Assembly: GCF_000376425.1 (NCBI RefSeq)
Contig: NZ_AQWL01000012.1
Span: 25,548-89,547, forward strand
Direction: 5' to 3'
Origin: Thiobacillus denitrificans DSM 12475
Lineage (GTDB): Bacteria; Pseudomonadota; Gammaproteobacteria; Burkholderiales; Thiobacillaceae
Length of the DNA: 64,000 nt
A program made the translations under genes and the position numbers. Positions 3,011-62,650 of the stretch are shown here, one piece after another. Within the stretch, counting starts at the first letter, position 1. Each line of letters opens with the position of its first letter. The notes beneath the pieces are model-generated. The model made no database searches and was not told the DNA's origin. It saw nothing but the letters and a program-made list of their open reading frames with translations.

Positions 3011-3070
3011 GGCAACTCCTTGAATATGACTCGAAACAGTCGAGCCTTCAGCCTTGCGAGTAAGAGTTGA
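3011..3070 (-). promoter_or_regulatory. Repeated leader element, copy upstream of VWA gene
   Basis: On the minus strand it contains CAACTCTTA, then GCAAGGCTGAAG, a hairpin GGCTCGA/TCGAGTC with loop CTGTT, and AAGGAG eight bases before the start codon. Order and spacing match the other copies listed here. The outer helix seen in most copies is not obvious; TGAA/TTCA may replace it. Confidence 0.55.
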
Positions 3071-3111
3071 TGAACAAGGCTTTATATGTTGCCGAATCGT
3101 TTTTTCGGGCG

Positions 3112-3139
3112 TTGGTTTGCGCCCTCCTTTCGATACAAT
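3112..3139 (+). promoter_or_regulatory. Candidate sigma70 promoter for the S49 peptidase gene
   Basis: TTGGTT (3112-3117) and TACAAT (3134-3139) are 16 bp apart and 43 bp upstream of the start codon at 3182. They lie just outside the divergent leader of the VWA gene. Confidence 0.45.
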
Positions 3140-3181
3140 GTCATGCGCGTGTATAACTTTCAGCAATCCAAAGGACATAAG

Positions 3182-4168
3182 ATGACCGAAAGCAATCGAG
3201 GAGAAGAGCGTCGGAACGTTTCCGTGCCTGAAACGCTGCTGGACCGGATGGTGACCATTCTTGAAAAGGAACACCGTTCTCGAGCCATTCGCTTCTACCT
3301 GCTGGTTGGTGCAATCATCCTGCCCTCCCTCATATACGCCGTGGCAACTTCTGCATTCCTGAACAAGAACCAGGAGCAAAACCCCAAGGAATATGCGGCG
3401 CTGGTCAAGATCGATGGTGAGATCGCGGACGGCAAAGAGGCCTCCGCCCTGGCAATCATGCCGGCGCTGGAATCGGCGTTCAAAGATGAAAAGGCCAAGG
3501 GCGTCGTGCTGCTGATCAATTCTCCCGGCGGCACACCCGTTCAGGCGGGCGTAATTCACGACCGCATCCTCGAGCTCAAACAGAAGTACCACAAGCCTGT
3601 CATCGCGATGGGCCGCGACATGATGACCAGCGGTGCCTACATGGTCGCGGTGGCCGCAGACAAGATTTACGCCAACGAGGCGTCCCTGGTGGGCTCCGTC
3701 GGGGTGGTCATTCGCGGCTTCGGCCTGTCCAACGTCTTACAGCGCTATGGGGTCGAGCGCCGCGTGTACGCGGCCGGCAAGAACAAGAACACCATGGACC
3801 CGTTCAGCCCGGAAAAAGCGGAGGACGTCGCAAAGACCAAGGAAATGCTGGACAAGATCCACCAGCAGTTCATCGCCAAGGTGAAGGCTGGCCGCGGAAA
3901 CCGCCTGAAGAAGGACGACGACTTCCTCTTCACTGGCGGGTACTGGACCGGGACTGAAGCCCAGGAATACGGCCTGATCGATGCTGTCGCCGACCTGCCA
4001 AAGGTGCTGCAAGACAACTTTGGCGTCGAGGCATTGAAAGACATGAACAAGAAGGACTTCTTCGCTGAATTGAGCAAAAAATTCTTCGGCGGGTTCAGCC
4101 TGTCGGCAAATGGCCTGGACTTCAAGTCCGGTGTCTATGCCGAAGTCGAGCCCGGACAGATTTATTAA
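3182..4168 (+). CDS. SohB/SppA-like S49 serine peptidase, membrane-anchored
   Basis: 328 residues starting at MTESNRGEER, chosen for the AAGGA ribosome site at 3171-3175. One N-terminal membrane segment (FYLLVGAIILPSLIYAVA). The ClpP-like S49 domain shows INSPGG, then MTSGAYMVAVAADKIYA containing the nucleophile serine. Then GSVGVV follows, and YAAGKNKNTMDPFSP with the expected general-base lysine. Such peptidases cleave signal peptides or membrane proteins on the periplasmic face. Short versions next to plasmid genes are common, but the substrate is unknown. The gene is followed by a 40-residue hydrophobic ORF and a terminator. Confidence 0.88.
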   Translation: MTESNRGEERRNVSVPETLLDRMVTILEKEHRSRAIRFYLLVGAIILPSLIYAVATSAFLNKNQEQNPKEYAALVKIDGEIADGKEASALAIMPALESAFKDEKAKGVVLLINSPGGTPVQAGVIHDRILELKQKYHKPVIAMGRDMMTSGAYMVAVAADKIYANEASLVGSVGVVIRGFGLSNVLQRYGVERRVYAAGKNKNTMDPFSPEKAEDVAKTKEMLDKIHQQFIAKVKAGRGNRLKKDDDFLFTGGYWTGTEAQEYGLIDAVADLPKVLQDNFGVEALKDMNKKDFFAELSKKFFGGFSLSANGLDFKSGVYAEVEPGQIY

Positions 4169-4192
4169 CCCAACCTAGAAAGGAGCCACGAA

Positions 4193-4315
4193 ATGGATGA
4201 CATCGTCAACGCGCTGACCAACCTCGGCGCCTGGGGGGCCGGACTCGTCGCGCTGGCACACCTAGCGGCCAACGCCGTGAGTCCGCTGGTGTATTCCTCG
4301 GTCTACTGCTTCTGA
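4193..4315 (+). CDS. Very small hydrophobic protein, 40 aa
   Basis: An ATG follows an AAAGGAG site at 4179-4185 and the frame runs MDDIVNALTNLGAWGAG to SSVYCF, then stops just before a strong terminator. The middle (GAGLVALAHLAANAVSPLV) could form one membrane helix. It sits 24 bp after the peptidase gene and is probably co-transcribed. Family unknown; it could be a regulator or substrate of the membrane peptidase, which is speculation. Confidence 0.5.
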   Translation: MDDIVNALTNLGAWGAGLVALAHLAANAVSPLVYSSVYCF

Positions 4316-4330
4316 CCGAGTCCAGCCCAG

Positions 4331-4361
4331 AGCCGGGTGCGCAACACCCGGCTTTTTTTTT
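4331..4361 (+). terminator. Rightward intrinsic terminator
   Basis: Nine-base perfect stem AGCCGGGTG/CACCCGGCT with loop CGCAA, followed by nine T. It ends the peptidase unit. Confidence 0.9.
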
Positions 4362-4387
4362 CTAACGCACGCCATTGAGGGAATTGG

Positions 4388-5356
4388 ATGCACCTGATCG
4401 AGGAGATCTTTGTAGCCATGAGCCATTTACTGAATCGCCTGATGAAATTCTCGGTGGACGTCACCCGCGCCCTGATGGGAGGACGCCAGGAAACCTTTCT
4501 CGTACGGGCCGCTTTTGGCTGCCTACTGGTCGGAATTTTTCTGGTCGTGGGCGGCATACAGAGCCATTGGGCGGTCTTGGTAGCGGCGGCAGTGCCCGGC
4601 GTACTGTTCATGGTGCTGCTCTCAGCCGCCTATGCGGGAGCCAAATCGTTCTTCACGGTGACCGGCATGGGCGTGGTCGCCCTGTTCGCTATCCTGTGGC
4701 TGTTCAACATGGATAACGCCCAATACCTTGTCCTGGCTACCGGCATGCTGTTCGTGACGGGAATGATCGCTTTTCTGGACGGGGCCATGGTTTCAAGCAT
4801 GATCCGTGGGGCGCTCGCCGATATGCGCGTCAAGAGCACGCTCAAGCGCATCGCGGGCAAGACCGGGCATGTGATCCACAATGTCCTGCTCCAAAGCGAG
4901 CTGTATTCCTGCGAAATCGACCATATCCTGATCAACCACGCGGGAGTATTTGTCGTTGAAACCAAGGGCATGTCCGGACGGATTTTCAATCAGGGCGAAA
5001 ACATGCCCTGGATTCAGGCGCCGTCCACCGACCACAGCATGGAGTTCGAATCTCCGATTGAACAGAACGCACGCCACGTCAGCGTTCTGAAGGAGCTGCT
5101 TGGCACCGAGTACCCGATCTACAGCCTGGTCGTTTTCACGAACGCGACATTTGCCAACGCGATGCCTTCGAACGTGATCCAGGTGGGTGACCTGAAGAAG
5201 TACATCCGGCAGTTCAAACACAAGGCCATCGTGTCTTCTGCACAGGCACATGCCTTGAACACGATCGAGTCCAAGCGGGACACCTCCAGGGCGGGCCAAC
5301 GCGAGCATCGGCGGCGGGTGGAGGAGCGCCGACTGCGGGAGCATATGGCTGGGTAG
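4388..5356 (+). CDS. Membrane protein with cytoplasmic NERD nuclease-related domain
   Basis: 322 residues. Several hydrophobic segments occupy about residues 40-140 (for example VRAAFGCLLVGIFLVVGGI and YLVLATGMLFVTGMIAFL). A NERD domain follows, recognised by ELYSCEIDHILINHAGVFVVETKG, where E, D, E and K are in the order of the restriction-endonuclease-like core. NERD proteins are linked to DNA processing, but their reaction is mostly unproven. The ATG at 4388 follows GAGGGA; an internal ATG at 4418 is possible. The gene stands alone between a terminator and the par region. Confidence 0.75.
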   Translation: MHLIEEIFVAMSHLLNRLMKFSVDVTRALMGGRQETFLVRAAFGCLLVGIFLVVGGIQSHWAVLVAAAVPGVLFMVLLSAAYAGAKSFFTVTGMGVVALFAILWLFNMDNAQYLVLATGMLFVTGMIAFLDGAMVSSMIRGALADMRVKSTLKRIAGKTGHVIHNVLLQSELYSCEIDHILINHAGVFVVETKGMSGRIFNQGENMPWIQAPSTDHSMEFESPIEQNARHVSVLKELLGTEYPIYSLVVFTNATFANAMPSNVIQVGDLKKYIRQFKHKAIVSSAQAHALNTIESKRDTSRAGQREHRRRVEERRLREHMAG

Positions 5357-5361
5357 CAAAG

Positions 5362-5396
5362 TTATCCACAGTTCCCGTGGGTAACGTTGTGGATAT
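5362..5396. other. Two DnaA-box-like sites, candidate origin element
   Basis: TTATCCACA lies at 5362-5370, and an inverted near-copy (TTGTGGATA, complement TATCCACAA) at 5388-5396. About 240 bp of AT-rich sequence follows before parA. Paired DnaA boxes beside an AT-rich stretch are typical of plasmid replication origins, but no iterons are obvious here. Confidence 0.5.
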
Positions 5397-5456
5397 GTGA
5401 CAGGTCGATGAAGATCCGTCCAGAGATGCTCGGTTTCGTTGGTACCCGCCCATTTG

Positions 5457-5645
5457 TTAGGCAAACACTATGAAAATTCGGTGTTTTTCGCTTCTCTGAC
5501 CGGCTCTTGGTAGGTTTTTGGTTTTAGTTGTTCTTTTTCAATAGCCAGTTTTCTTATACTGATTTTCCTACTTAAATTAGCCATTTTGCGTCGGTTGATT
5601 AGTTATGTTTAGTAGGCAAAAGTCGAGATTTACTCTTTTTGCCTA
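5457..5645. promoter_or_regulatory. Probable ParA/ParB operator: TTAGGCAAA repeats
   Basis: TTAGGCAAAC occurs at 5457-5466. The inverted pair TAGGCAAAAG (5613-5622) and CTTTTTGCCTA (5635-5645) sits about 70 bp before the parA start. The N-terminal region of this ParA is the right kind of DNA-binding domain to autoregulate from such sites. The rest of 5397-5712 is AT-rich with a possible -10, TATACT, at 5555-5560. Confidence 0.5.
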
Positions 5646-5712
5646 ACAACGCACTTGTCATTGTTCTGCTTATTGTATATGTTATTTATATTCTCCTCCG
5701 CTTGTACGCGTC

Positions 5713-6861
5713 ATGGCTCTTAGATCAACGTTCGCTATAACGTCTGGATTGCAATACAGGTTGCGTGCTGCCGGCGCGTTGCTTGGTGTGACTGACAATA
5801 CGCTTCGGACTTATTCGGACAACGCCGGGATCGAGGTCAAGCGCGCCTCCGATTTCAGCCCCGGTGCACCGCCCGTACGTGTCTTCTTGCCGGAAACGCT
5901 TTTCCAACTCGCTCAATGGCGGCGAGCGCAGGGATATATCAAGATCCCGCAGTTTGCGCGGAGCCCAATCGTCCTCGCGATTTACGTAATCAAGGGCGGA
6001 ACCGGGAAGACCACGACGGCCGTTGAGTTAGCCATTCACCTTCAGATGATGGGCCTGCGCGTGGCGCTCATCGATATCGACATCCAGGGCAACGCCACCC
6101 AATCCATGGGGTACGAACCTGATCTAACGATGGACGAGGCGACGGCGTATGAGGTTAACGCTGATGCTATCGTGCAGGACACCTTTGCCTCGATCATGCT
6201 GCCGTTTCTAGACCGTAGCCGCGGGAGCCTGGCTTTACGTGCCGAAGTTGGCGAAGGCGTCATCAAGAAACCGTTCGGCGAACACGGGCCTCATCTCATC
6301 CCAGCCGACACCTTCATTGGAGATCTCGAACAGGGGTTGGCACTCGCCAAGGGACAGCGGGAGCTCTACATTCGGCAGATGATCGAAGCCTCGAAGGATG
6401 GCAGCGTCCCTGGGTTCAATGCATCCAATTACGACGTGATCCTGTTTGATTGCCCGCCCAATGTTTCTTTCACGTCAACCGCAGCCATGGCGGCCGCAGA
6501 TATCGTTGTTTCCCCGATCCGGCTCGACGCCTTCAGCGTGAAGGGCCTGACCAAGGTCATGAATGAGATTACTGCGATGGATGAAGCCTATAAGCTGCGT
6601 CCGCAGCTGGTTATCCTGCCGACGCATTATTCGCCCCATTTGGCTCGTATTGGGCGGATGCAGTCACAGCTCAACAAATACCGAGACATGCTGGCACCCA
6701 ACGTGATCTCGACAAGCGAGGAATTCCCGAAATCGCTTGAGAACTACCTGCCGCTGTCCTTGCAAAAGCCCACATCGACGCCAGCCAGCGAATATCGCAT
6801 GTTCGCCGAGTTCATGTTCAAGAAGATCGTCGATCTGGGTTCGAAAGGGGGTGGCAAATGA
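5713..6861 (+). CDS. parA: Plasmid partition ATPase ParA, type Ia
   Basis: 382 residues. A DNA-binding N-terminal region of about 90 residues precedes a deviant Walker A, VIKGGTGKTTTAVE, at about 98-110. Walker A' (LIDIDIQGNATQ) and Walker B (VILFDCPPNVSF) follow. The length and N-terminal domain are those of P1/F-type ParA, which moves plasmid copies apart along the nucleoid and represses its own operon. No good ribosome site precedes the ATG. The stop overlaps the parB start by 4 bp. Confidence 0.93.
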   Translation: MALRSTFAITSGLQYRLRAAGALLGVTDNTLRTYSDNAGIEVKRASDFSPGAPPVRVFLPETLFQLAQWRRAQGYIKIPQFARSPIVLAIYVIKGGTGKTTTAVELAIHLQMMGLRVALIDIDIQGNATQSMGYEPDLTMDEATAYEVNADAIVQDTFASIMLPFLDRSRGSLALRAEVGEGVIKKPFGEHGPHLIPADTFIGDLEQGLALAKGQRELYIRQMIEASKDGSVPGFNASNYDVILFDCPPNVSFTSTAAMAAADIVVSPIRLDAFSVKGLTKVMNEITAMDEAYKLRPQLVILPTHYSPHLARIGRMQSQLNKYRDMLAPNVISTSEEFPKSLENYLPLSLQKPTSTPASEYRMFAEFMFKKIVDLGSKGGGK

Positions 6862-7925
6862 AAATACGAAAACTCACACCAGGCCCCGCGATGCCGCTGC
6901 CGGACTTTAAGCAGCCCGCAGAGTTGGGCGATGCTTCGGCGCAAGAAAGCCCGAGCGACAAGCCTGGCACCACAGACGCGCCAAGCGCTCCTGAAGCCCA
7001 CGTTGATACTGATGCCGCGCCTTCCCCGGCGGCAAATGATGAAGAGCCCAAGGTCACAGGCGCCACTGAATCTCCTGTTGAGGATTCGCAGCAGATCGAA
7101 ACCAGAGAGTACGTCGAGCCCACGAAGGACGAGCTGGGGGTTCTTGAGCAGATTGCGATAGAAAAAATCCTCACTTCGCCGTTCCAGCCGAGACTTTACT
7201 TTGATGAACAGTCCCTTGAGGACCTGGCGGAGAACATTCGCGAGGTTGGCGGCCTCGTTGAGCCCATTAAGGTAAGGCCGCTGGCCGATGGGCGATTCGA
7301 GCTCATTTCCGGTGAGCGCCGGGTGCGTGCTTACCGTATCAACGGCGCACCAGAGATTCCAGCCTGGATAAAGGCCATGGACGATGGCACTGCGTTCAAG
7401 GAAGCCTGCGCAGAGAACCTCAACCGTGAGGATCTGACGCTGTATGAGAAGGCGGCCGCTTACAAGCGTGCGCTCGATGAAGGCCACGCCAAAAGCCAGC
7501 GAGCGCTCGCCGTGCTGTCCGGCGTGAACCGTATGGATATTCAGCGGTGTCTGGGAATTTTCAAACTCCCGCCCGCTGCCATCAAGGTCATCGCGGCAAA
7601 CAAAGACATCCTGGCGCTGAGCCATATCGAACACCTCGTCGATTACGCGACAAACGGACACGGTGATCTGGTGGCCCAGGGATTGGAATTGGTCAGCAAG
7701 GATCGCCTGAAGCGGGACATGCTTATCAGCTGGATCGAGAAACAAGCCAAGCCAAAGAACGCCGTGCAGACCTTCCATCAGTATTCCCTGCATGGCAAGC
7801 CGCTGGGCCGGATGGTTATCAAGAGCAAGAAGGTTTCATTCAACCTGGACAGCGAAGAAAACTCAAAGCTTCTGGTTGAGGCCTTTGAGAAAGCGATAGC
7901 CAGCCTGGGAGGCACGAAAGGGTAA
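6858..7925 (+). CDS. parB: Centromere-binding CTPase ParB
   Basis: 355 residues. The first 90 are acidic, Pro/Ala-rich and probably contact ParA. The ParB core follows: LTSPFQPRLYF, then GGLVEPIKVRPL and SGERRVRAYRI (the CTP-binding GERRxR box), then AENLNREDLTLYEKA and a helix-turn-helix around SQRALAVLSGVNRMDIQR. It is translationally coupled to parA and lies directly before the three palindromes at 7972-8092, which are its likely parS sites. Confidence 0.93.
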   Translation: MKIRKLTPGPAMPLPDFKQPAELGDASAQESPSDKPGTTDAPSAPEAHVDTDAAPSPAANDEEPKVTGATESPVEDSQQIETREYVEPTKDELGVLEQIAIEKILTSPFQPRLYFDEQSLEDLAENIREVGGLVEPIKVRPLADGRFELISGERRVRAYRINGAPEIPAWIKAMDDGTAFKEACAENLNREDLTLYEKAAAYKRALDEGHAKSQRALAVLSGVNRMDIQRCLGIFKLPPAAIKVIAANKDILALSHIEHLVDYATNGHGDLVAQGLELVSKDRLKRDMLISWIEKQAKPKNAVQTFHQYSLHGKPLGRMVIKSKKVSFNLDSEENSKLLVEAFEKAIASLGGTKG

Positions 7926-7971
7926 TGTTGACTAATTTAGTCGGGAATACAGGGCACAAGCAGGCAGGCCG

Positions 7972-8092
7972 TGGCACAAGTTGTGCCATCCTGCCGCCAG
8001 CCATTGCGGGGGGCGATTGTTTGGTCAGGCATCGGGTGGCACAGGTTGTGCCACCCCGCCTCCCCCAACGACCAGTGGCACAAGTTGTGCCG
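7972..8092. repeat. parS centromere: three 17-bp palindromes
   Basis: TGGCACAAGTTGTGCCA at 7972-7988 is a perfect 8-1-8 palindrome. The second, 8037-8053, has one change (CACAG). The third starts at 8076 and ends in GTGCCG. A half-site GGCACAAG lies at 7953-7960. Centre spacings are 65 and 39 bp. Position directly after parB supports a ParB loading site. A 255-bp open frame across the cluster is an effect of the repeats. Confidence 0.85.
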
Positions 8093-8131
8093 CCCGACCG
8101 AGGAAGACCACACCAACCCGAACAACAGACC

Positions 8132-8157
8132 AGGGCCGCCACAAGCGGCCCTGTTTC
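8132..8157 (+). terminator. Terminator after parAB-parS
   Basis: Stem AGGGCCGC/GCGGCCCT with loop CACAA, then GTTTCTTTTT. It isolates the par operon from the next gene. Confidence 0.75.
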
Positions 8158-8234
8158 TTTTTGGAGAATAAAAATGTAGGCGTCCAGACTGATGCGCTTT
8201 GCCAGCTGCGGCAACAGTTAGCAAAGCAAAAAAA

Positions 8235-8264
8235 GAAAGCCCACGACGGCAATCGTGGGCTTTC
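8235..8264 (-). terminator. Strong hairpin, leftward terminator
   Basis: A 12-bp stem GAAAGCCCACGA/TCGTGGGCTTTC encloses CGGCAA. The A-run at 8226-8234 becomes a U-tract on the minus strand, so it would stop leftward transcription into the par region. No leftward gene is seen directly upstream of it. Confidence 0.55.
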
Positions 8265-8366
8265 AGTGGATCGTGGAGATTGGGGTCCTCACAAATCCGT
8301 AGTGCTGATCGGATAGTAGGACTGCTGTCTCCGCGTGTCAAGGAACCCGAGACTCAGGAGTCAGAA

Positions 8367-9431
8367 ATGTCCCGTGATTTGCGCTGGGCGCAACATCTAG
8401 CCAAGCCCAACTTCCCCAAATACGTTTTACACGTAATGCGTATCGTCGCGTCGTCTTCCAAATTCGACGGGATTTCCAATCGATCCCGCGAAGTCCTGTA
8501 TTACCTATCTTCTTTGGTTGATACAAAAACTCGGGAAGCCATGATTTTTGCAACAAAAGAAACAATCGCGAGAAATACTGGATGTAGCGAACCCACCGTA
8601 TATCGTGCACTTCGTGAAATTGAAGAAAATGGATTGATTTTTCGTAACGCACAAAAATTCAACCCGGATAGCGGATTTTTCAGAATTGGAGAAATTCAAT
8701 TTACTGAAAAGTTTTACGAGATCGTCGGACATCCCGTGAAGCCCGACAGCATTCCACAGCATACCGGCGAAAGTCAGAAAACCGCGGCGGGCGGCGCCAG
8801 TGCTGCAGCCACGAAACCCACTCAGGGCGCGGCTTTGCAGGAATCACCGTCTATCAACATGATCGACAATACCCAGATAAAAAACCCTTACCAAAAACAA
8901 AAAATAAGCAACGCTAGCCCACTGGAAAAGCCAGGACAAAACCGGCTTCCAGAGTCCCTGCGATGGCTTGTCGACCAAGGATTGATGAACGATCGGCAGG
9001 TCATCAACGTGATGTGGAAGGCGAAGCAGGCCAAGCAACGGCTTCAGGACCTTCTGGACGTCAAGCGCCATGTCATCGAGTCAGGCCAGATCAGGAACCT
9101 GCCTGGCTATCTGTGGAAGCTGCTCGATTCAGGTGACGACTATGGCTATGTGGCGAGAAAGGCCAGGGAGGACGCAACCCATCAGCAGCAGGCTGCAAGC
9201 CTTGGCAACGAGCTGCAGGATCTGCTTAGCGGCATGACCGGGAAGGTGTTGCGGCTGGCCACCGGTGGGGTATTCAGGCGGGATGCGGCGCCGGATGGGT
9301 TCCTGGAGTTCTACGATGCCGAGGGCTGCCGGCGCGGGGTCTGCCCAACCAACCTTAGCTGGTTTGAGCAGATCAAGGCTCGTGGCTACGAACTGGTGGA
9401 TGAAGCGATCGCGTTTGGGGGTGCAGCGTGA
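8367..9431 (+). CDS. Winged-helix replication-initiator-like protein
   Basis: 354 residues from MSRDLRWAQHL. Residues about 35-100 look like a winged helix (ATKETIARNTGCSEPTVYRALREIEENGLIFRN) of the type in plasmid and phage replication proteins (RepO-like). A Ser/Ala/Gln-rich linker and a helical C-terminal region follow (LPESLRWLVDQGLMNDRQV onward). Its place directly after parABS suggests a replication or copy-control role, but no iterons flank it. The N-terminal third is AT-rich compared with its neighbours, a sign of separate ancestry. A transcription factor role is the alternative. Confidence 0.5.
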   Translation: MSRDLRWAQHLAKPNFPKYVLHVMRIVASSSKFDGISNRSREVLYYLSSLVDTKTREAMIFATKETIARNTGCSEPTVYRALREIEENGLIFRNAQKFNPDSGFFRIGEIQFTEKFYEIVGHPVKPDSIPQHTGESQKTAAGGASAAATKPTQGAALQESPSINMIDNTQIKNPYQKQKISNASPLEKPGQNRLPESLRWLVDQGLMNDRQVINVMWKAKQAKQRLQDLLDVKRHVIESGQIRNLPGYLWKLLDSGDDYGYVARKAREDATHQQQAASLGNELQDLLSGMTGKVLRLATGGVFRRDAAPDGFLEFYDAEGCRRGVCPTNLSWFEQIKARGYELVDEAIAFGGAA

Positions 9432-9434
9432 TTT

Positions 9435-9505
9435 TCCTCACTCACTCATCCGCGCAATTGCTCATCTCCTCAATTGCTCATTCCCTCAATTACTCAATCC
9501 GTCTT
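9435..9505. repeat. Cluster of CTCA/ACTCA boxes
   Basis: A phased series of short boxes (CTCACTCACTCAT, CAATTGCTCAT, CAATTGCTCAT, CAATTACTCAA) about 15-19 bp apart. They resemble the CAATTGAGTAA and TTACTCA boxes around the second par operon at 24967-25067. They could be an extra centromere-like cluster for the ribbon-helix-helix protein at 25738. Confidence 0.45.
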
Positions 9506-9688
9506 GCTTTCGGGCGGCGTGATGACACCGGTCTGATCGAGCTTGTCGAGACGTTTCTTGGCCGCAGCAAGCCCGCGGCGAGCAGGCAGGTTGGCGGCGC
9601 CGGCCGCGCGTTCCTCGTCCGAGACCTCCTCTTGGAGTGCCTTGATGACGTCAATCAGGACTTCTTTGGGTGGATTGGCCATGGTCAT
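9494..9688 (-). CDS. Small helical hypothetical protein, 64 aa
   Basis: Reads MTMANPPKEVLIDVIKALQEEVSDEE and then a basic, Ala-rich helix ending PPESKTD. The charge pattern is that of a small coiled or DNA-associated protein. Two adjacent ATG codons (9688 and 9682) are possible and neither has a clear ribosome site. It is the only leftward frame between two rightward genes, so it could be spurious. Confidence 0.4.
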   Translation of the reverse strand: MTMANPPKEVLIDVIKALQEEVSDEERAAGAANLPARRGLAAAKKRLDKLDQTGVITPPESKTD

Positions 9689-9832
9689 TGTTCGCGTTGC
9701 GCGGAGAAATTCTATCCGACCAGACCGGCCTCTGGTTTTGACGCTTCGGATCGGGGGGGGCAATTTTTTATGATGTTGTTGATTTCTATAGCGAGTTTCC
9801 CCGCGACAAAGCTGGCCGTATTGGGCTGTGTG

Positions 9833-9895
9833 CCTCAATTCTCCAGGCAACGTTGAAGCTCGGGGTGTTCTCGAGCATTTACTTAGGAGGTTGCT
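9833..9895 (+). promoter_or_regulatory. Repeated leader element, copy upstream of nrdJ
   Basis: CTCAATTCT, then GCAACGTTGAAG (9847 onward), hairpin GCTCG/CGAGC, and AGGAGG five bases before the ATG. The stem sequence differs fully from that of other copies while pairing is kept. No cobalamin riboswitch is visible. Confidence 0.55.
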
Positions 9896-12382
9896 ATGTT
9901 GATGAATGAGCTGTCAGTCTCAAACGAGCCCCAGGAAATCTCTAGCGAGGTTCTTCTGGAAAAATACTGCAAGGGTGGCGAAACCACGCATGAAGAAATT
10001 TTCATGCGTGTTGCTGAGGCCCTCGCAGCGGTGGAACCGAAGGATCAGGAACACTGGAAGAACGAGTTCTACCAAGCCATGATGGATGGTTTCGTGCCTG
10101 CTGGGCGCATTGCGTCCGCAGCTGGTACCGCCATCAAGGCAACCCTGATCAACTGCTTCGTGCAGCCGGTCGGGGATGCAGTATCCAAAATCGTGGATGG
10201 GAAACCATCGATCTACGAGGCGCTGGCCCAGGCAGCCGAGACCATGCGTCGCGGTGGCGGGGTTGGGTATGACTTCTCCTCGATCCGTCCCAACGGCGCA
10301 CAGGTGAAAGGCACCCATTCACGGGCATCCGGACCGTTGAGCTTCATGAAGGTCTTCGATGCAAGCTGTTCCACCGTGGAGTCAGCCGGTTCCCGCCGTG
10401 GCGCTCAGATGGGTGTCATGCGGTGCGATCACCCTGATATCGAGGCGTTTATCCACGCCAAAGACGAAGGGGACTTCCGTAACTTCAACCTGTCCATCGG
10501 TGTGACGGACCCCTTCATGGAGGCCGTGAAAACGGACTCCGAGTGGGAGCTGGTCCATGTCTCCGAGCCGGACCCGAAGGAATACCCGGATGCCTATCAG
10601 CGCGAAAGCGACGGCAAATGGGTCTACCGCAAAGTGCAGGCCAAGGATCTGTGGAACCTGGTCATGCTGTCCACCTATGACCACGCAGAGCCCGGCATCC
10701 TGTTCCTGGACCGGATCAACAAGGACAACAACCTCGACTACTGTGAGGTGATCGAGGCTAGCAATCCTTGTGCCGAGCAAATGCTGCCCCCGTACGGGTG
10801 CTGCTGTCTCGGTTCGACGAACCTGAGCAAGTTCGTTCGTCAGCCGTTCACGGAAAAAGCCACGTTTGACATGGCAACTTTCCGTAAAACAGTAGGAACC
10901 GGCATCAGGATGCTCGACAACGTTCTGGACGCCACTTACTGGCCGCTGGAAGCGCAGCAAAAAGAGGCCCATGCAAAACGACGCATCGGGCTTGGCTTCC
11001 TTGGTCTGGGTGACGCCTTGATCATGTTGGGTTTGAAGTACAACACGGACGAAGGTCGTGAGTTCGCCGAGCAAATTGCGATGAACATGCGCGACGCTGC
11101 GTATGACGCATCCATCGCTCTGGCGAAGGAAAAAGGTGCTTTCCCGCTGTTTGACGCGGAGAAGTATCTGGGCAGCGGCTTTGCTTCGCGTCTTCCCGAA
11201 GACATGAAGTTGGCTATCGCGGAGCACGGCATTCGCAACTCCCACCTGCTGTCGATCGCGCCCACCGGGACCATCTCCCTTGCGTTTGCCGACAATGCCA
11301 GCAATGGTATTGAGCCTGCGTTTTCCTGGACTTACATCCGGAAGAAGCGCATGGCCGACGGTAGCAAGAGGGAGTACGAGGTCGCTGACCATGCCTGGCG
11401 TTTGTACCGGAGCATGGGTGGTGACATGGAGAACCTGCCTGAGAGCTTTGTGACGGCGCTGGAGATGTCTGCCAGTGACCACATGAAGATGCTCAAGGTT
11501 GTCCAGCCGTACGTCGATTCGGCAATTTCGAAAACGGTGAACATCCCGGCGGACTACCCTTACGAGGACTTCAAGGACCTCTACCTTGAGGCCTGGGAAG
11601 CAAATCTGAAGGGGTTGGCGACCTACCGTCCGAACGCGGTCCTTGGTGCTGTTCTGTCCACCACGCCGAGCACGCCGGAAGCGCCCAAGCCTGAGGCAAT
11701 GATGGAAGACAATCCGCTGCGCAAGCAGTTCGAGAGTCGTCCGCTTGGCGATCTGGAGTCATTGACCCGCAAGGTCGAGTACGCGACCCAGGAAGGCAAG
11801 AAAACGGCTTATGTCGCGATCTCCTTCACGAGCGTAAAAGGTGTTGTGAACGGCGAGGAAGTGGAAATCGAGCGCCCGTTCGAGTTCTTCCTTCCGGCTG
11901 GCCAGAATACTGCGGACCATCAGTGGGCCATGGCCTCGATGCGGCTGCTGTCGATGGCTGCGCGGACCGGTGCACCAATCGCCAAAGCGCTGCACGACAT
12001 GCGCAAGGTGGTTTGGACGTCCGGCCCCGTGCGGTGCGGTCATCTGGTCAAGGACGATGGTACGCGAGTGCCGATGTTCCACGACTCGGAAACCGCAGCT
12101 ATCGGCTACAGCCTGCAGCAGATGCTGATAAAGCGTGGCTTCCTGGATGCGGATGGCAATCAGGTTCCTGTCCATGCCTTGGCTGCGCGTTTCACGGGTC
12201 GCGATGCGATGGAGGGCGGTTTGTCGATCCAGGAGGACACTGCTGGCGGGGCGGATTATTCGTCGTCGCTAAGCTACCAGCCGACTGGTGCGAAATGCCC
12301 CGAATGCGGTGCGTTCGCGTTGCGTAAGGTGGATGGCTGCAAGCGCTGTGATGCGTGTGGCGCTGAAATGGGCTGCGGTTGA
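9896..12382 (+). CDS. nrdJ: Adenosylcobalamin-dependent (class II) ribonucleotide reductase
   Basis: 828 residues. Reduces ribonucleotides to deoxyribonucleotides using a B12-derived radical, so it works with or without oxygen. Seen: NCFVQP (Cys87, one of the redox pair), RRGGGVGYDFS, GSRRGAQMGVM, and the catalytic NPCAEQ loop at 290-295 with the thiyl Cys292 and Glu294. CCCLGSTNL follows, and SIAPTGTISL near 460. The C-terminus ends in a zinc-ribbon tail (CPECGAF, then CKRCDACG) typical of long NrdJ forms. Start ATG 9896 follows AGGAGG at 9885-9890. It has its own leader and terminator, so it is a single-gene unit. Confidence 0.95.
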   Translation: MLMNELSVSNEPQEISSEVLLEKYCKGGETTHEEIFMRVAEALAAVEPKDQEHWKNEFYQAMMDGFVPAGRIASAAGTAIKATLINCFVQPVGDAVSKIVDGKPSIYEALAQAAETMRRGGGVGYDFSSIRPNGAQVKGTHSRASGPLSFMKVFDASCSTVESAGSRRGAQMGVMRCDHPDIEAFIHAKDEGDFRNFNLSIGVTDPFMEAVKTDSEWELVHVSEPDPKEYPDAYQRESDGKWVYRKVQAKDLWNLVMLSTYDHAEPGILFLDRINKDNNLDYCEVIEASNPCAEQMLPPYGCCCLGSTNLSKFVRQPFTEKATFDMATFRKTVGTGIRMLDNVLDATYWPLEAQQKEAHAKRRIGLGFLGLGDALIMLGLKYNTDEGREFAEQIAMNMRDAAYDASIALAKEKGAFPLFDAEKYLGSGFASRLPEDMKLAIAEHGIRNSHLLSIAPTGTISLAFADNASNGIEPAFSWTYIRKKRMADGSKREYEVADHAWRLYRSMGGDMENLPESFVTALEMSASDHMKMLKVVQPYVDSAISKTVNIPADYPYEDFKDLYLEAWEANLKGLATYRPNAVLGAVLSTTPSTPEAPKPEAMMEDNPLRKQFESRPLGDLESLTRKVEYATQEGKKTAYVAISFTSVKGVVNGEEVEIERPFEFFLPAGQNTADHQWAMASMRLLSMAARTGAPIAKALHDMRKVVWTSGPVRCGHLVKDDGTRVPMFHDSETAAIGYSLQQMLIKRGFLDADGNQVPVHALAARFTGRDAMEGGLSIQEDTAGGADYSSSLSYQPTGAKCPECGAFALRKVDGCKRCDACGAEMGCG

Positions 12383-12411
12383 GCCCAAGATGAGTGAGCG
12401 ACAATGTCTCC

Positions 12412-12442
12412 AAGACAAGCAACATCGTCCGGATGTTGTCTG
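12412..12442. repeat. Hairpin after nrdJ
   Basis: An inverted repeat pairs CAACATC with GGATGTTG and extends outward through GACAA/TTGTC. It precedes the real terminator by 30 bp. Function unknown; possibly mRNA 3'-end protection. Confidence 0.35.
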
Positions 12443-12471
12443 CTTATTCACGTCCAATGGCTGATGCCACA

Positions 12472-12507
12472 AACCTCCATGCGCCCTGTGCCGTGGAGGT
12501 TTTTTTT
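12472..12507 (+). terminator. nrdJ terminator with CCUGU loop
   Basis: Stem AACCTCCA/TGGAGGTT, inner TGCGC/GCCG, loop CCTGT, then eight T. Member of the CNUGU-loop set. Confidence 0.88.
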
Positions 12508-12528
12508 GCTCTGGGAGTGCGATAGATC

Positions 12529-13854
12529 ATGAGACTGGTAAAGAAAAACCGCATCGGGCAGGCCTATGAGGCCGCCGGCAACGCTCTTTCTGCCGAGGAC
12601 GCTGAAACCATCAAGCGCTACTGGAAGGGTGACCGCTCGATCGCAGGCGATGTGAGCTACATTCTGCATAAAGTCCATGCGGCCGACCTCTGGATCGCGT
12701 GCGACTGCCGTGACGACGACACCCCCATCCTGTTTCCCCGGCAGGACGCCAACGGGCGCTATGTGCCGGTCAGGAACCCGGAGCGCGCCGCACACCACGA
12801 AGATTGCGTCTTCCATTGGGAAGAAGGTTCCCTTGGCCAGCACGGAACACATTTGGCAAAACCCCACGAGTGGCCCGACCTGATCCTGTTTCGGCCTGGC
12901 AGGGAGCATTCATCCGGGACGCGGGGTTCCCGTATATCCGATGTGGAACGAGTCAAACCCGTCGACCGGCTGCAGCAGATCTTCCAGAAGCTGATGGAGG
13001 AGGCACATCTGAACCGCATGACAGCCAAATATTTCGGACTTAAAGAGCAGCTTGAGGCGATGCGCTTGGTGGCCAGGGGCAAACCCATTGGCCTCAAGGA
13101 CTTTACGCTCGACCAGGTGCTTTGGACGCATCCCGACTGGGTCACGAAAGATTGGGCCGCGCGCGCGCTGCACAAGCTACGGGAGGGTGGATGGCCGCTT
13201 AACCTACCCCTTCAAGGATACGTGATCACACTCGCCGAAAACATCGTTGACCGGGCCATTTATCTTGAGGGCGGAACCGTCCTGCATATTGAGGGGAAAA
13301 TGAGCCGGATACGCCTGCCGGATGGGGCGCCAGTCGGTGGCCCGCACGTGGTCATCATCGGAGTCAAGATGGACGACAAGGACGAAAAGCTTCAGCTGGT
13401 ACGCGCTTTCGCCCAGCCCATCCTCGAAGCCCACAACATCTTCCCCGTCGCCACGGCGCAGCAGCGCCAAACTGCCCATGCACTGCGCTGGGTGCTCAAG
13501 AAGGTGGCCGAATCGAACCAGGACCTGGAACGCGTTGAAGTCGAGAAACCGCTGTATCCGATCGAGTTCGAGGAAGAGGAGGAGGAACCTGTTTTGCCGG
13601 ATTTCATCGTGCGGTCCTATGAACACTCCATGGTGGTCGCCGAGATGAGCGGCGTCCAGAACGAAGCACGCAGCGCGCAGGTGGAAAGGATGGCCAAGAT
13701 CGGCCCAGTATTCGAAGAGTTCCGTGCATCCCTTACGAAGCGCGAGGCAGACAGCCGGATCGCCAAAAAGGTCATGGGCTGGCTCAAGGCGAGCGGCGCT
13801 TTTGAAAGGGCGGAGGGGGTGGTGCCGACGAGCGCAGGTTCGGTGGCCACCTGA
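12529..13854 (+). CDS. Conserved-plasmid-type protein of unknown function, 441 aa
   Basis: I do not recognise the family with confidence. Residues about 55-95 hold ACDCRDDDTPILFPR and later HHEDCVFH, a C-x-C plus His/Cys cluster that could bind zinc. The central part is mixed alpha/beta; a Glu run (FEEEEEEP) lies near 345 and a charged helical tail follows. The general look recalls DUF1173-like proteins of integrative elements, a weak resemblance. It begins 20 bp after the nrdJ terminator without a strong ribosome site. Confidence 0.6.
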   Translation: MRLVKKNRIGQAYEAAGNALSAEDAETIKRYWKGDRSIAGDVSYILHKVHAADLWIACDCRDDDTPILFPRQDANGRYVPVRNPERAAHHEDCVFHWEEGSLGQHGTHLAKPHEWPDLILFRPGREHSSGTRGSRISDVERVKPVDRLQQIFQKLMEEAHLNRMTAKYFGLKEQLEAMRLVARGKPIGLKDFTLDQVLWTHPDWVTKDWAARALHKLREGGWPLNLPLQGYVITLAENIVDRAIYLEGGTVLHIEGKMSRIRLPDGAPVGGPHVVIIGVKMDDKDEKLQLVRAFAQPILEAHNIFPVATAQQRQTAHALRWVLKKVAESNQDLERVEVEKPLYPIEFEEEEEEPVLPDFIVRSYEHSMVVAEMSGVQNEARSAQVERMAKIGPVFEEFRASLTKREADSRIAKKVMGWLKASGAFERAEGVVPTSAGSVAT

Positions 13855-13867
13855 GAAAAGCATCCAA

Positions 13868-14649: not shown

Positions 14650-14682
14650 GGGCCGTCGCTACTGACGGCCCCCCTTTTTTTT
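14650..14682 (+). terminator. Terminator or attenuator directly before a start codon
   Basis: Stem GGGCCGTC/GACGGCCC, loop GCTACT, then CCC and eight T. It ends only 4 bp before the GGAG ribosome site of the gene at 14698, so it is placed like a transcription attenuator. Confidence 0.7.
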
Positions 14683-14697
14683 AGCGGAGTTAGCCAG

Positions 14698-51640: not shown

Positions 51641-52005
51641 TCGTCGAGCTTGACGATCTCGCCCTGAGCCGGACCTTGCTCGGCAATCTTTCTGGCAACA
51701 CGGCCAGGTGTGAACATGCCCGACCAGGTGTGGCCCATGTCGCGCGCTTTGGTGCGTGCGACACGTTTGAGGCTGCTTCCGCCATCTTTCTGGTGGATTT
51801 CGCCATGGATCTGCTCGACCGCCAGCAGGAATGCAATGTCCTGATGAGCGACTGAGAGTTCGTGCTGCAGCTTCTTCTGGTTGGAGAAGCGGCGGCCGAT
51901 CATGGTCGCAACAATTGCAGCGATGATGGTGCCCATGACGGACCCCAACATGCTGATAAAGGCGGCCTGAACTTGCGGATCAGACCAAATAATTGCCGTT
52001 AACAT
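51628..52005 (-). CDS. Small membrane-anchored coiled-coil protein, 125 aa
   Basis: The start MLTAIIWSDPQVQAAFISML has AGGAG seven bases upstream; a longer frame upstream is the leader. One membrane helix (MGTIIAAIVATMIG), then a basic coiled coil (RRFSNQKKLQHELSVAHQDIAFLLAVEQIHGEI). A conserved-looking HTWSGMFTPGRVARKIAEQG follows. Probably sits in the inner membrane with its tail in the cytoplasm. Family unknown. Confidence 0.65.
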   Translation of the reverse strand: MLTAIIWSDPQVQAAFISMLGSVMGTIIAAIVATMIGRRFSNQKKLQHELSVAHQDIAFLLAVEQIHGEIHQKDGGSSLKRVARTKARDMGHTWSGMFTPGRVARKIAEQGPAQGEIVKLDDFKL

Positions 52006-52070
52006 ACTGTTTCTCCTGCACATAGGCGACTTCCAAAGCGGAAATCTAAAACCTTGCAGGAAGGATTTAC
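52006..52070 (-). promoter_or_regulatory. Repeated leader element upstream of the 125-aa gene
   Basis: On the minus strand: AAATCCTTCCT, GCAAGG (52052-52057), hairpin TTTCC/GGAA with loop GCTT, CCTATGTGC (52018-52026) pairing with GCAAGG with a 3-nt bulge, then AGGAG. Confidence 0.72.
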
Positions 52071-52088
52071 GGACGCGGGGCAAGAAAA

Positions 52089-52116
52089 AACCCCATTGCA
52101 CACGGCAACTGGGGTT
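52089..52116 (-). terminator. Leftward terminator with CGUGU loop
   Basis: AACCCCA/TGGGGTT, inner GTTGC/GCAA, loop CGTGT, A-run on the plus strand before it. It follows the broken gene at 52134-52452. Confidence 0.85.
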
Positions 52117-55925: not shown

Positions 55926-56148
55926 ACAATTCTCACAACCATCGTATTCATAGTACGGGGAGTGCGGGAATCCCCCGGAAATACCAGATGAATGGTATGA
56001 GTACATGGACGGTCGGCGGCGGTCGGATGGCCGGGTAAGCGGCTGACGTCTGCCCGCGGTCTACTTACGTCTCGATGATAGTTTCCGCAACGCGGCGCGC
56101 GTGGATTTCCAGATGACATCCTGAAGTTCGGTGTGCAGATGATAAAAA
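55926..56148. other. Gene-free stretch with nothing recognised
   Basis: GC-rich, no frame with a start and ribosome site, no repeats that recur elsewhere. It may be the right border of the cargo block (porin to antitoxin). Confidence 0.4.
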
Positions 56149-56149
56149 T

Positions 56150-56177
56150 GCCCCAGTTGCACACGGCAACATGGGGC
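56150..56177 (-). terminator. Leftward terminator with CGUGU loop
   Basis: GCCCCA/TGGGGC, inner GTTGC/GCAAC, loop CGTGT; ATAAAAAT on the plus strand supplies the U-rich end. It ends the 56730-56189 operon. The core matches 52089-52116. Confidence 0.82.
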
Positions 56178-56369: not shown

Positions 56370-56543
56370 TTATGAAATCTTGTAGTAGCCGGCTATCGAG
56401 CGACGAAAGCACAGGTTCCAGCTAAACAGGGCGGCTTTGGCATCCAGTCTCACCAGTATGCTCGGCAGTACGCCTCGCGTCGCCAGTTTGCCCTTGATGC
56501 TGATCTTCTCGTCCAAGCTCAAGACTTTTTTGTTGAGTTCCAT
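56370..56543 (-). CDS. Small basic protein, 57 aa, overlapping the DUF1289 frame
   Basis: GGAG nine bases upstream, then MELNKKVLSLDEKISIKGKL and ATRGVLPSILVRLDAKAALF, ending AGYYKIS. The amino-acid pattern looks genuinely coding. It shares about 120 bp with the C-terminal frame of the DUF1289 gene in another phase, so one of the two ends may be artificial. Confidence 0.5.
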   Translation of the reverse strand: MELNKKVLSLDEKISIKGKLATRGVLPSILVRLDAKAALFSWNLCFRRSIAGYYKIS

Positions 56544-56730
56544 GGTTTAACACTCCGTCAAAAATTCGATCCAGGCAGGCCTGACGTTCCACATCACTCC
56601 AATCCCGCCACGAAGCGATTTCGGCGAGCGTGCGGAAACAGCCGCTGCATACCCCGGACTCGCTGACCTTGCATACGTTGACGCAAGGCGACTGAACTTG
56701 ATCTGGAGAAGGGTTTGCTGTGTCAGACAT
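56422..56730 (-). CDS. DUF1289 small metal-binding protein
   Basis: 102 residues as an open frame. SPCVNVCKVSESGVCSGCFRTLAEIASWRDWSDVERQACLDRI is the DUF1289 signature with four cysteines, likely zinc or iron-sulfur binding. The normal family is about 60 residues, so the tail after GVLNHGTQQ may be non-native read-through overlapping the next gene. Starts behind a copy of the repeated leader. Confidence 0.75.
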   Translation of the reverse strand: MSDTANPSPDQVQSPCVNVCKVSESGVCSGCFRTLAEIASWRDWSDVERQACLDRIFDGVLNHGTQQKSLELGREDQHQGQTGDARRTAEHTGETGCQSRPV

Positions 56731-56800
56731 GTTTGAGTCTCCTTGCAGAGGCCGCACCCCGGAATGGGCTGCTTAAAACCTTGCCTATAGAGTTGAAAGA
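56731..56800 (-). promoter_or_regulatory. Repeated leader element, copy upstream of the DUF1289 operon
   Basis: On the minus strand: TTTCAACTCTATAG, GCAAGG (56779-56784), hairpin CCC-ATTCC-GGG, CCTCTGC (56745-56751) pairing perfectly with GCAAGG around one bulged C, then AAGGAG. The C-to-G change in GCAASG is matched by the opposite change in the pairing strand. Confidence 0.78.
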
Positions 56801-56836
56801 CACCGTCACAGAATTACAAGTACGGTCAATTTGGTG

Positions 56837-60715: not shown

Positions 60716-60716
60716 C

Positions 60717-61496
60717 TCAGGCAAGGCTTTCAGGGGCGAGGCAAACACGGTTGCGGCCTTCGTGCTTCGCTCGATAAAGGGCTGTATCTGCCCGGTGGAT
60801 AAATTTGTCCCGGGTTTCTCCGGGCATCATGTGCGCGACGCCAATTGATGCTGTGACGGTGAAGGCCTTGGAGTCGAACTCGATCTGGGTTTGCTCAACC
60901 GCTGTGCGAATGCGCTCTGCAACGAGGAAGGCCTGGTCGGCATCGGTCTCCGGGAGGCATACGGCAAACTCCTCGCCGCCGATGCGTCCTGGTGTGTCCT
61001 GTTCGCGCAGCATGTCCTTCACGGTATCTGCGACGACCGTGAGCACTTCGTCGCCACCGACATGGCCATAGCGATCGTTGACGCTCTTGAAGAAATCGAG
61101 GTCAATCAGAGCGAGGCATGTGTCACGTTTGTTGCGGCTACTGCGATGCATTTCCTTGTCCAGCGCGTCCATGAAGGTACGGCGGTTAGGCAAACCCGTG
61201 AGATGGTCGGTCTTGGCGATGCTTTCCAGCTCCGAATAGAGCTTCTGCCTCTGCTCGATCTCGGTGGCCAGGAGGTGATTCAGGCGAACCACGCGGAATG
61301 ACACCAGGGCGGCAGCACCGAGGGCAAGAATCGCACCCAGGCCAACGATGCCCATTGATGTTGAGCAAGGCAGCGTCGACCGGGCATTGTCCGCAGGTTC
61401 CGGGTATTGCATGCTAGGGACGGCGTGCGCGGGCAAGCAAACACAGGTGACAAGGACGGCAAAGAGGATTTTGAGGCGAGGAACCATTCGATCCAT
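60717..61496 (-). CDS. Membrane diguanylate cyclase (GGDEF)
   Basis: 259 residues. Signal-like segment LKILFAVLVTCVCLPAHAVP, a short periplasmic stretch, a membrane helix (GIVGLGAILALGAAALVSF), a coiled coil, then GGDEF: TDHLTGLPNRRTFMD, IDLDFFKSVND, RIGGEEFAVCLPE, and GVAHMMPGE. The signature is GGEEF, an active form. It makes the second messenger c-di-GMP. No inhibitory RxxD is seen before it. The longer GTG start at 61520 is possible. Confidence 0.9.
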   Translation of the reverse strand: MDRMVPRLKILFAVLVTCVCLPAHAVPSMQYPEPADNARSTLPCSTSMGIVGLGAILALGAAALVSFRVVRLNHLLATEIEQRQKLYSELESIAKTDHLTGLPNRRTFMDALDKEMHRSSRNKRDTCLALIDLDFFKSVNDRYGHVGGDEVLTVVADTVKDMLREQDTPGRIGGEEFAVCLPETDADQAFLVAERIRTAVEQTQIEFDSKAFTVTASIGVAHMMPGETRDKFIHRADTALYRAKHEGRNRVCLAPESLA

Positions 61497-61560
61497 TATC
61501 CAGATCGACCCCTTGCGCACGAATACTGAAAATCAAGGTGCGGGCTGACGGCAAGAAAAA

Positions 61561-61589
61561 AGCCCAGACGCACAAAGGCGAACTGGGCT
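61561..61589 (-). terminator. Leftward terminator with CUUUGU loop
   Basis: AGCCCAG/CTGGGCT with inner CGC/GCG, A-run before it. Near-exact copy of the one at 51297-51325, 10 kb away. Confidence 0.85.
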
Positions 61590-61627
61590 GTGGGCTGACT
61601 TTGTCAGCAGGTAATCAGAAGCTTGGC

Positions 61628-62584
61628 TTAATCGCCGGTTTTCTTCCTGGTGGAGGCTTTGACCGTGAAGATCTCGCCGGAGCGCATGCCGTACTTGCTC
61701 GACAACTCGTCGAGGTCAACTCCGAGGGCTTCGGCAACCTTCTGTTCGTCGTAGGCACCTGGAACCATGGGGCGGTACTTGTCCAAGGCTTCCACATTCT
61801 CTAACTCGAGAGCGGTGGCGATGGCGGTCCAGTCATAGCCCGTGAACTTGTCCCAGACAGAAGCGGTGACGCCTGCTGCCTTGAACTTGTTCAACCCCTG
61901 AGGCATGAGTGCGCGGATACGTTCGGAAGCCAATTCCTTGGCTTTCTTGGCATCGGCGAGATCAACCTCCGACAATAACCACATCGCGGCGGCCTCTCCC
62001 CACTCCGGGCTGTACATCGGGCGACGTTCCATGACGTGCTGCCAGAAATCATGCTCGGCTTCCCAGATTTCCTCGATCAAGTCCTCATTCCGATAGACCT
62101 TGAAGTAGGCCCCCTGTTTGAGTTCTGGCGAGTAGGCTCCGTACCACAAATAGTCCATTTCACCGACCAACATCTGGTGATTTATCTGGATTTCGTAGTA
62201 GTCGGGCAGTTTGCCTGACAGGGCCATCTGATACACCTTGAGTCCAGGCACCTTGATTTCGAGACCGGAAGTGAAATCCATCTGAACGCCGTCAAAACTG
62301 GCGCGGATGAACCCGGCTTCATCGTGCTCGGCACACATAGGGGTAAATGCCTCCCCGATGCGCTCCTCGAAATAGACCCGTGCCTCGTCCTCGAAGTCAA
62401 CACCACGTTGCATGGCGGCGTTCATTTTGGGGCCTGCACGCAGACCCATTTTCCGCTCCCAAAGCTCCTGTGACGTTTCCCAAGGTGACTTCCCAACGGT
62501 GGCGGCCGCCTCAGACGCACCAATGCCGCCTTGACGCCAGTCCAGCCATTGCTGGCTGCGTTGCTCGTGCTGAATGATTTGCAT
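61628..62584 (-). CDS. YqaJ-family (lambda-exonuclease-like) recombinase nuclease
   Basis: 318 residues from MQIIQHEQRSQQWLDWRQGG. Motifs: GIGASEAAATVGKSPW, RGVDFEDEARVYFE, ASFDGVQMDF and LEIKVPGLKVY, which give the metal-binding acids and Lys of the PD-(D/E)XK core. It resects DNA ends for single-strand annealing; a Bet/RecT partner is not in the window. The start codon is set here because the upstream in-frame ATG codons (MARMQGAVT) lie inside the leader element. Confidence 0.9.
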   Translation of the reverse strand: MQIIQHEQRSQQWLDWRQGGIGASEAAATVGKSPWETSQELWERKMGLRAGPKMNAAMQRGVDFEDEARVYFEERIGEAFTPMCAEHDEAGFIRASFDGVQMDFTSGLEIKVPGLKVYQMALSGKLPDYYEIQINHQMLVGEMDYLWYGAYSPELKQGAYFKVYRNEDLIEEIWEAEHDFWQHVMERRPMYSPEWGEAAAMWLLSEVDLADAKKAKELASERIRALMPQGLNKFKAAGVTASVWDKFTGYDWTAIATALELENVEALDKYRPMVPGAYDEQKVAEALGVDLDELSSKYGMRSGEIFTVKASTRKKTGD

Positions 62585-62650
62585 GGTTACTGCTCCTTGC
62601 ATACGCGCCATCCGACGGGATGGCTTTGACGTTGCACCTAAGGATTGAGG
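62585..62650 (-). promoter_or_regulatory. Repeated leader element, canonical copy upstream of the YqaJ exonuclease
   Basis: CTCAATCCTTAGGT, GCAACG (62630-62635), hairpin CCATCC/GGATGG with loop CGTC, CGTATGC (62599-62605), then AAGGAG. Its GGCGCGTATGCAAGGAG segment can be mistaken for coding sequence. Confidence 0.8.

Follow-up and report, generated by a model that had tools for sequence, protein, structure and literature searches.

The question raised by this locus is what kind of element precedes a whole set of genes on one bacterial replicon with the same ordered layout, and what it may do there. The analysis concerned a stretch of 64,000 nucleotides (nt) of Thiobacillus denitrificans DSM 12475, called the window below, which corresponds to positions 25548-89547 of contig C12 (NZ_AQWL01000012.1) in a genome of 3.6 Mb and 38 contigs. 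A first-pass annotation of the window had described a repeated structured 5' leader before at least ten plasmid genes and had likened it to a conserved cis-regulatory RNA without a named family. By our count, nine leaders are present inside the window, one short of that claim, and 33 on the whole replicon. With moderate confidence, the leader is regarded here as a new multi-copy cis-regulatory RNA family that occurs, within the limits of the searches, on a single large plasmid and serves as a translational leader read by a trans-acting factor. The position, the structure and the covariation of the leader and, within the collections searched, its restriction to the replicon are documented below. 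The structural part of the earlier description was borne out, and it is the position of the leader that suggests a cis-regulatory role.

Structure and covariation of the leader

Copies were gathered by a pattern scan, and then by a covariance model (R1; built on nine seed rows, of which the window supplied four) and a weight matrix for an element upstream of the leader. The 33 leaders on 232 kb comprise 29 with this upstream element, one at C12:506 without a clear one, and three on C15 (42+, 4465- and 29549-; the start codon of 42+ opens a short frame only). Over the whole genome, all 19 matches of R1 at E<=1 were located on C12, C14 and C17, the C15 copies not being reached.

The 5' arm of the first helix (P1), GCAASG, usually starts 12-13 nt after the T of a conserved TCAA. 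In class A its partner is CSU-bulge-UGC and the Shine-Dalgarno sequence (SD) comes right after, and in class B, with six copies including a poor one, the partner is GUUGC, which overlaps the SD, so that the SD lies in or beside the partner strand. P1 encloses a hairpin of free sequence (P2), mostly of 5-8 bp, and the SD and the start codon follow. Both the partner strand of GCAASG and the compensated C/G swap were found as described earlier; the swapped P1 pair is G-C in 13, C-G in 10, A-U in two, G-U in two and other in four of 31 aligned rows. These rows comprise 30 of the 33 leaders together with the uncounted site C14:15586-, and were aligned by a model built mostly from the same rows, so that the alignment leans to the model. 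Their covariation was 0.413 against 0.136 in shuffled alignments (0/500) and at most 0.055 in slid controls, with 91.7% of cells paired; an earlier alignment of 27 rows, two of them dubious, had given 0.252 against 0.088.

Arms were also swapped between copies, which needs no alignment, in 29 copies (C12:506 and the C15 copies left out; the SD was misplaced in C14:38648). The energy of the P2 arms was -7.09 kcal/mol in native and -2.45 kcal/mol in swapped combinations (0/5000), with 24 distinct arm pairs among the 29. For P1, swaps did as well in 5/5000 cases overall and in 0/5000 within class A. The claim of a conserved structured RNA is thus supported by covariation and by these permutations. 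A third pairing (P0) joins the SD to the conserved CAAYYCU strand upstream of P1, and according to our reading of the folds the SD is bound to the upstream YYCU strand in the most stable structure of 18/31 copies. P2 is as good as certain, P1 is well supported, and P0 is plausible and weakly supported.

A hairpin near the presumed 5' end and directly before a strong SD, with a free stem sequence in P2 and modest folding energies, is also what a passive mRNA stabiliser or standby site without a dedicated regulator would look like. Such a hairpin, however, needs neither near-invariant GCAASG and UCAA motifs at near-constant spacing nor two SD arrangements, and this explanation is considered unlikely. 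Seven copies (class A1) are nearly identical upstream of unrelated genes, which a mobile or converted repeat would also produce by spreading before genes in the absence of any regulatory role; the other copies, however, differ in most bases and keep the pairing and the spacing, and nearly all copies end at the SD and the start codon. An origin of this kind is regarded as extremely unlikely, the least probable of those weighed here.

The upstream element

Upstream of the leader a fixed-spacing element, TTMT-N6-GTGT-N3-TCAAYYCT, was found in near-constant register; it was analysed in 26 copies. Column information from -60 to -18 revealed the TTMT and GTGT blocks and no conserved -35, nor any -10/-35 pair. 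The layout of a sigma-70 promoter (TTGACA and TATAAT about 17 bp apart) was not found. In promoters of extracytoplasmic function (ECF) sigma factors about 16-17 bp separate the -35 from the -10 motif, and this layout was not found either, the two blocks being 6 nt apart with nothing conserved farther upstream.

With the weight matrix, 31 sites above 15 bits were found on 180 kb (C12, C14 and C17), the best score on the reversed sequence being 14.0, and a leader comes after 29 of them; the sites are therefore not due to chance. One exception, C14:15586-, has GCAAGG without such a hairpin or a nearby start. At the other, C17:308+ (stretch L009, 296-377), a terminator follows the element directly, with no leader, and a possible small RNA is encoded. 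The transcript of C17:308 resembles the SD region of the leaders, and it was considered as an antisense activator of them. This candidate was rejected, since 51/400 shuffles and 807/1500 random plasmid stretches did as well in a test with a 69-nt stretch from the second GUGUC rather than from the presumed 5' end.

The element often begins in the T-run of the terminator of the preceding gene. With a loose finder, a terminator-like stem was found to end 16-23 nt before TCAA in 9/31 copies, two of which (C14:6951 and C12:43845) have poor T-runs. Transcription at these copies must therefore restart within or just past the T-run, and any promoter there must be compact; we infer that the upstream element is such a compact promoter. 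No match to PF00940 (single-subunit RNA polymerase) was obtained in the own genome, which shows little because the controls gave no match either.

The strongest upstream blocks (TTMT, GTGT and TCAA) have the look of DNA recognition sites, the genes served include some for recombination and partition, and all 14 leaders on C14 are on one strand, as would suit an operator, a promoter or a single-strand promoter of the Frpo/ssi type whose hairpin acts in DNA. Like the leader, Frpo/ssi is a structured element before early plasmid genes, but according to the excerpt of PMC11541004 the Frpo promoter forms part of a DNA secondary structure on which the -10 and -35 are marked, whereas the present hairpin lies downstream of a promoter-like element and next to the SD, and no -10/-35 pair inside a hairpin was seen in the 26 copies. 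The copies on C12, C15 and C17, moreover, are on both strands, and the position of the leader is tied to the SD and the start codon. An element acting in DNA is accordingly judged improbable.

Leader copies in the window

All nine copies that had been rated clear or good were located at their places, each ending in an SD and the ATG of an open frame. R1 found eight of them at E 0.39 or better. A second model (R2), built from rows that include these eight, gave them E 0.00017 or better, and the copy at 15.2 kb was weak (E 4.3). The coordinates below include the upstream element. Class B leaders are at 3011-3087(-), before a gene for a CobT/VWA-like protein (1064-3010(-)), and at 9818-9895(+), before the ribonucleotide reductase large chain (9896-12382); the weak class B-like one is at 15205-15282(+), before a Gp3-like recombination directionality factor (15283-16536). 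Class A leaders are at 18281-18361(+), before a HATPase-domain protein (18362-20017), at 52006-52086(-), before a protein of 125 aa (51628-52005(-)), and at 56731-56813(-), before a DUF1289 protein (56422-56730(-)). Class A1 leaders are at 16623-16700(+), before a protein of 87 aa (16701-16964), at 26028-26105(+), with a poor TTMT block, before a DUF4942/MTS protein (26106-27656), and at 62585-62665(-), before a YqaJ-like recombinase (61628-62584(-)).

The weak or divergent copies proposed at 17036, 35474 (the ssb gene) and 51579(-) were reported neither by R1 (E<=10) nor by R2 (E<=5), and none has an upstream element above 7 bits; they were dropped from the count. By eye, a leader-like hairpin lies at 51579-51640(-) without GCAASG and without the upstream element, possibly a decayed copy.

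Signature terminators

About 24 intrinsic terminators on C12, C14, C15 and C17 share the apical loop GCC-N1-3-GUGC with a C-rich block upstream, and 23 of them were aligned. A search for hairpins with a GCC-N1-3-GTGC loop and a T-run gave 25 on 232 kb against one in the reversed control; one of the 25, CAGGCTgccggtgcaaaGGTCTG, looks like chance. The same search gave none on C16, none on 60 kb of C13 and C18, and one each on the plasmid NZ_CP151407.1 of Azonexus hydrophilus and the Paraburkholderia plasmid pBN2, two related plasmids. A looser pattern over the whole genome agreed: 18 sites fell on the four contigs and about 28 elsewhere, against 13 control matches. Many transcripts of these contigs are therefore marked at the 3' end too, a feature that the first-pass annotation had not described.

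In the window, signature terminators were found at 12471-12508(+) (loop CGCCCTGTGC), 18247-18284(+) (loop TGCCATGTGC), 20022-20060(+) after the HATPase gene, 51288-51326(-) and 61553-61589(-) (both with GCCTTTGTGC in the loop), 52081-52116(-), and 56143-56177(-) (loop with GCCGTGTGC). The stem at 18247 ends 21 nt before the TCAA of the 18.3 kb leader, and that at 52081 ends 21 nt before the corresponding TAAA of the 52.0 kb leader, its T-run overlapping the upstream element.

Search for known families and homologues

Rfam 15 at the gathering score gave no match in the window, and at E<=10 a single sub-threshold Glutamine-II match away from any leader. In the rest of C12, in C14 and in C17 up to 39900, tRNA and GOLLD were the only matches at the gathering score. 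STAXI RNA, an Rfam family, appeared in none of the Rfam scans. The earlier statement that no named family fits therefore stands for the leaders on C12, on C14 and on C17 up to its last kilobase, the sequence that was scanned. Among the titles and the opening lines of abstracts searched in the literature, no description pointing to the leader was found.

Matches before homologous genes elsewhere, which the first-pass annotation had named as support, did not emerge: nothing above chance was found outside the replicon. With the own genome counted each time, the leader was found in 1/61 genomes of relatives, 1/118 of the family and 2/369 of the class, in runs with stricter filters that lose weak matches (14 own matches against 19 in the whole-genome R1 run); the one non-self match (E 0.009) is about what chance would give over that many genomes. 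R1 at E<=1 gave none on seven related plasmids, and R2 gave four matches on three of five related plasmids (best E 0.32), which are read as chance. A pattern run over a genome collection gave five single matches in unrelated organisms against about nine estimated by chance; distant relatives could be missed because this pattern fits only nine places on the own plasmid. Two patterns gave no leader match in viral contigs, and one leader used as a query against plasmid records gave two matches of 22-24 nt at E 9, read as chance.

Comparison with DUF3085 RNA and other leaders

Related plasmids carry another leader, the DUF3085 RNA (RF02959), which Rfam classes as cis-regulatory. On the Azonexus plasmid, to which 25/253 open frames of the replicon match at 1e-8 (e.g. 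ribonucleotide reductase, 58%), RF02959 gave 19 matches at E<=1, six of them over the gathering score; pBN2 gave 10 weak matches, two other plasmids one each and three others none. The weak matches are uncertain, as 5/14 control genomes also match below the cut-off. In the DUF3085 leaders of these two plasmids, the strand just 3' of the model pairs with the SD and the start codon in a gene-specific, compensated manner: tested on a selected 20 of the 29 matches of the Azonexus plasmid and pBN2, native pairing had -14.67 against -9.86 (0/5000). PMC12826799, as far as its excerpt goes, concerns the DUF3085 protein.

The two leaders are alike in being multi-copy 5' leaders before plasmid genes (33 copies here) and, by eye, in the order of a UCAAYCC block (UCAACCC in the DUF3085 RNA), a hairpin and the SD; in the DUF3085 RNA an SD-masking pairing follows. 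The DUF3150 gene on C17 has the plasmid leader, and its counterpart on the Azonexus plasmid (28% identity) has the DUF3085 RNA. A divergent member of the RF02959 family would explain this, but RF02959 gave no match at E<=1 in the whole own genome, R2 gave none at E<=1 on the Azonexus plasmid, and the GGUAGCUGG pseudoknot-like hairpin domain of the model with its CCAGCC partner is absent here (26 copies by eye). The DUF3085 RNA is, moreover, preceded by -10-like sequences (by eye) rather than by TTMT..GTGT, and its SD masking is strong (0/5000) whereas the possible masking in the plasmid leader is weak. Membership in that family is considered very improbable; the plasmid leader represents a device of the same type, built on a different RNA. 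Upstream of the ribonucleotide reductase and AAA (CobS-like) genes of the Azonexus plasmid a UAAACCC-hairpin block was seen by eye, and the other counterparts examined have other hairpins or none.

A repeated leader on C16 (five copies; stretch L043, 4405, 6575, 9721, 11829 and 14254), each with a U-run, AGGAG and ATG, likewise has a UCAACCC block and a hairpin, but its conserved block is about 150 nt (by eye) and of other sequence. In the stretch with the five copies no Rfam match, DUF3085 included, was found at E<=5, nor any near plasmid match.

Candidate trans-acting factors

An RNA-binding protein encoded by the plasmid would be a natural candidate for the reader of the leader, and the sole one identified is a predicted S1-like protein of 417 aa on C14 (stretch L006, 6988-8241(+)), whose best NCBIfam match is 30S S1 (3.8e-57, below its cut-off). 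A chromosomal S1-type gene also exists on C1. The S1-like gene is divergent from a neighbouring PAPS-reductase-like gene, which carries a leader. In plasmid records the matches of the S1-like protein are all below 60% identity, the annotated ones among the 40 matches listed being S1; in viral contigs it has none. C12 encodes an ECF-like sigma factor of 395 aa (C12:18823-20010; stretch L003, 13223-14410(+)) with a long C-terminal extension without a Pfam match, and no match to this factor at 1e-8 was found on the Azonexus plasmid or pBN2. C17 bears an array of tRNA genes on one strand (about C17:27964-35495; stretch L010, 8067-15595), in which ARAGORN counts 31 genes covering 18 amino acids and Rfam 26, and within which lies a GOLLD RNA (L010, 12689-13142(-); 191.7 bits, Rfam).

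An S1-like protein together with tRNA genes on a mobile element recalls huge phages with S1, S21 and tRNAs, whose ribosomal proteins are proposed to redirect translation, as stated in the excerpt of PMC7162821. According to the same excerpt, phages with a possible S1 rarely have identifiable SDs, whereas the plasmid leaders end in strong SDs; such a leader is not mentioned for huge phages in that excerpt.

The replicon

From their shared features, we infer that C12 (89.5 kb), C14, C15 and C17 form one replicon of at least 232 kb. Their G+C content is 0.56-0.57, whereas 3 kb sampled from C1 had 0.69 and 40 kb from C13 had 0.62-0.63; G+C alone is insufficient to define the replicon, because C16, which bears the other leader, is also low (0.53-0.56). 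A Rep3-type initiator, ParA/ParB, an integrase, gyrase A and B, ribonucleotide reductase, MukB, MukF, a TraG/TraD-like protein and a PRTRC ParB are encoded, and the replicon has the appearance of a large plasmid. Of 399 genomes of the order one, the own genome, gave a match to the Rep protein at E<=1e-20, and window positions 1-20000 are without a near match among 72,556 plasmid records.

The DNA gyrase B- and A-like genes are at 36793-38757 and 39858-42239 of the window, with MukB and MukF on the same contig. Two RHS-repeat proteins are encoded close together at 43375-47661 and 48100-50439. At the thresholds used, a protein of 1174 aa on C12 (stretch L003, 1732-5256(+)) matched nothing in Pfam, NCBIfam or PHROG.

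Discussion

The leader is real, ordered and plasmid-wide; in the collections searched it is new as a family, and in its use it is of a known kind. Transcription would start near GTGTC within the compact promoter-like element and the leader would follow, with P1 enclosing P2 across the bulge and the SD following or lying in the partner strand. The SD may pair with CAAYYCU (P0), and a trans-acting factor recognising GCAASG and the hairpin would open the SD or keep it accessible. In this way the leader would tune translation initiation of a plasmid regulon of recombination, partition, nucleotide and many unknown genes. Besides the covariation and the upstream element, the gene-specific SD pairing of the DUF3085 leaders on a related plasmid and, as a candidate reader, the S1-like protein on C14 speak in favour of this view.

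Several observations weigh against this interpretation. The P1 result weakens to 146/5000 in class A once a single copy stands for the near-identical A1 group, and P0 swaps did as well as the native pairing in 104/5000 cases overall, 218/5000 in class A, 998/5000 in class B and 531/5000 with A1 collapsed. Folding energy is unremarkable (mean z -1.27, 15/31 copies below -1). No homologue was found outside the plasmid, so that the covariation evidence is among paralogous leaders of one plasmid, and the S1-like protein has no match at 1e-8 on the Azonexus plasmid or pBN2.

A broader proposal, rather doubtful at present, is that the compact promoter class, the RNA leader and the terminator loop, which mark both ends of the transcripts, constitute an expression code of the plasmid's own. 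Plasmid factors (the ECF-like sigma factor, the S1-like protein, and possibly the tRNA array and GOLLD) would read these signals and thus separate plasmid from host expression.

To our knowledge, there are few descriptions of a replicon on which tens of unrelated genes are preceded by the same structured leader. SD masking supplies a functional hypothesis for the DUF3085 RNA, and the signature of compact promoter and terminator is directly testable. With one RNA family on this replicon, and the DUF3085 RNA before the counterpart gene on a related plasmid, large plasmids may generally use regulon-wide leaders while swapping their sequence, and it thereby becomes a testable question how the genes of a plasmid are coordinated and kept apart from control by the host.

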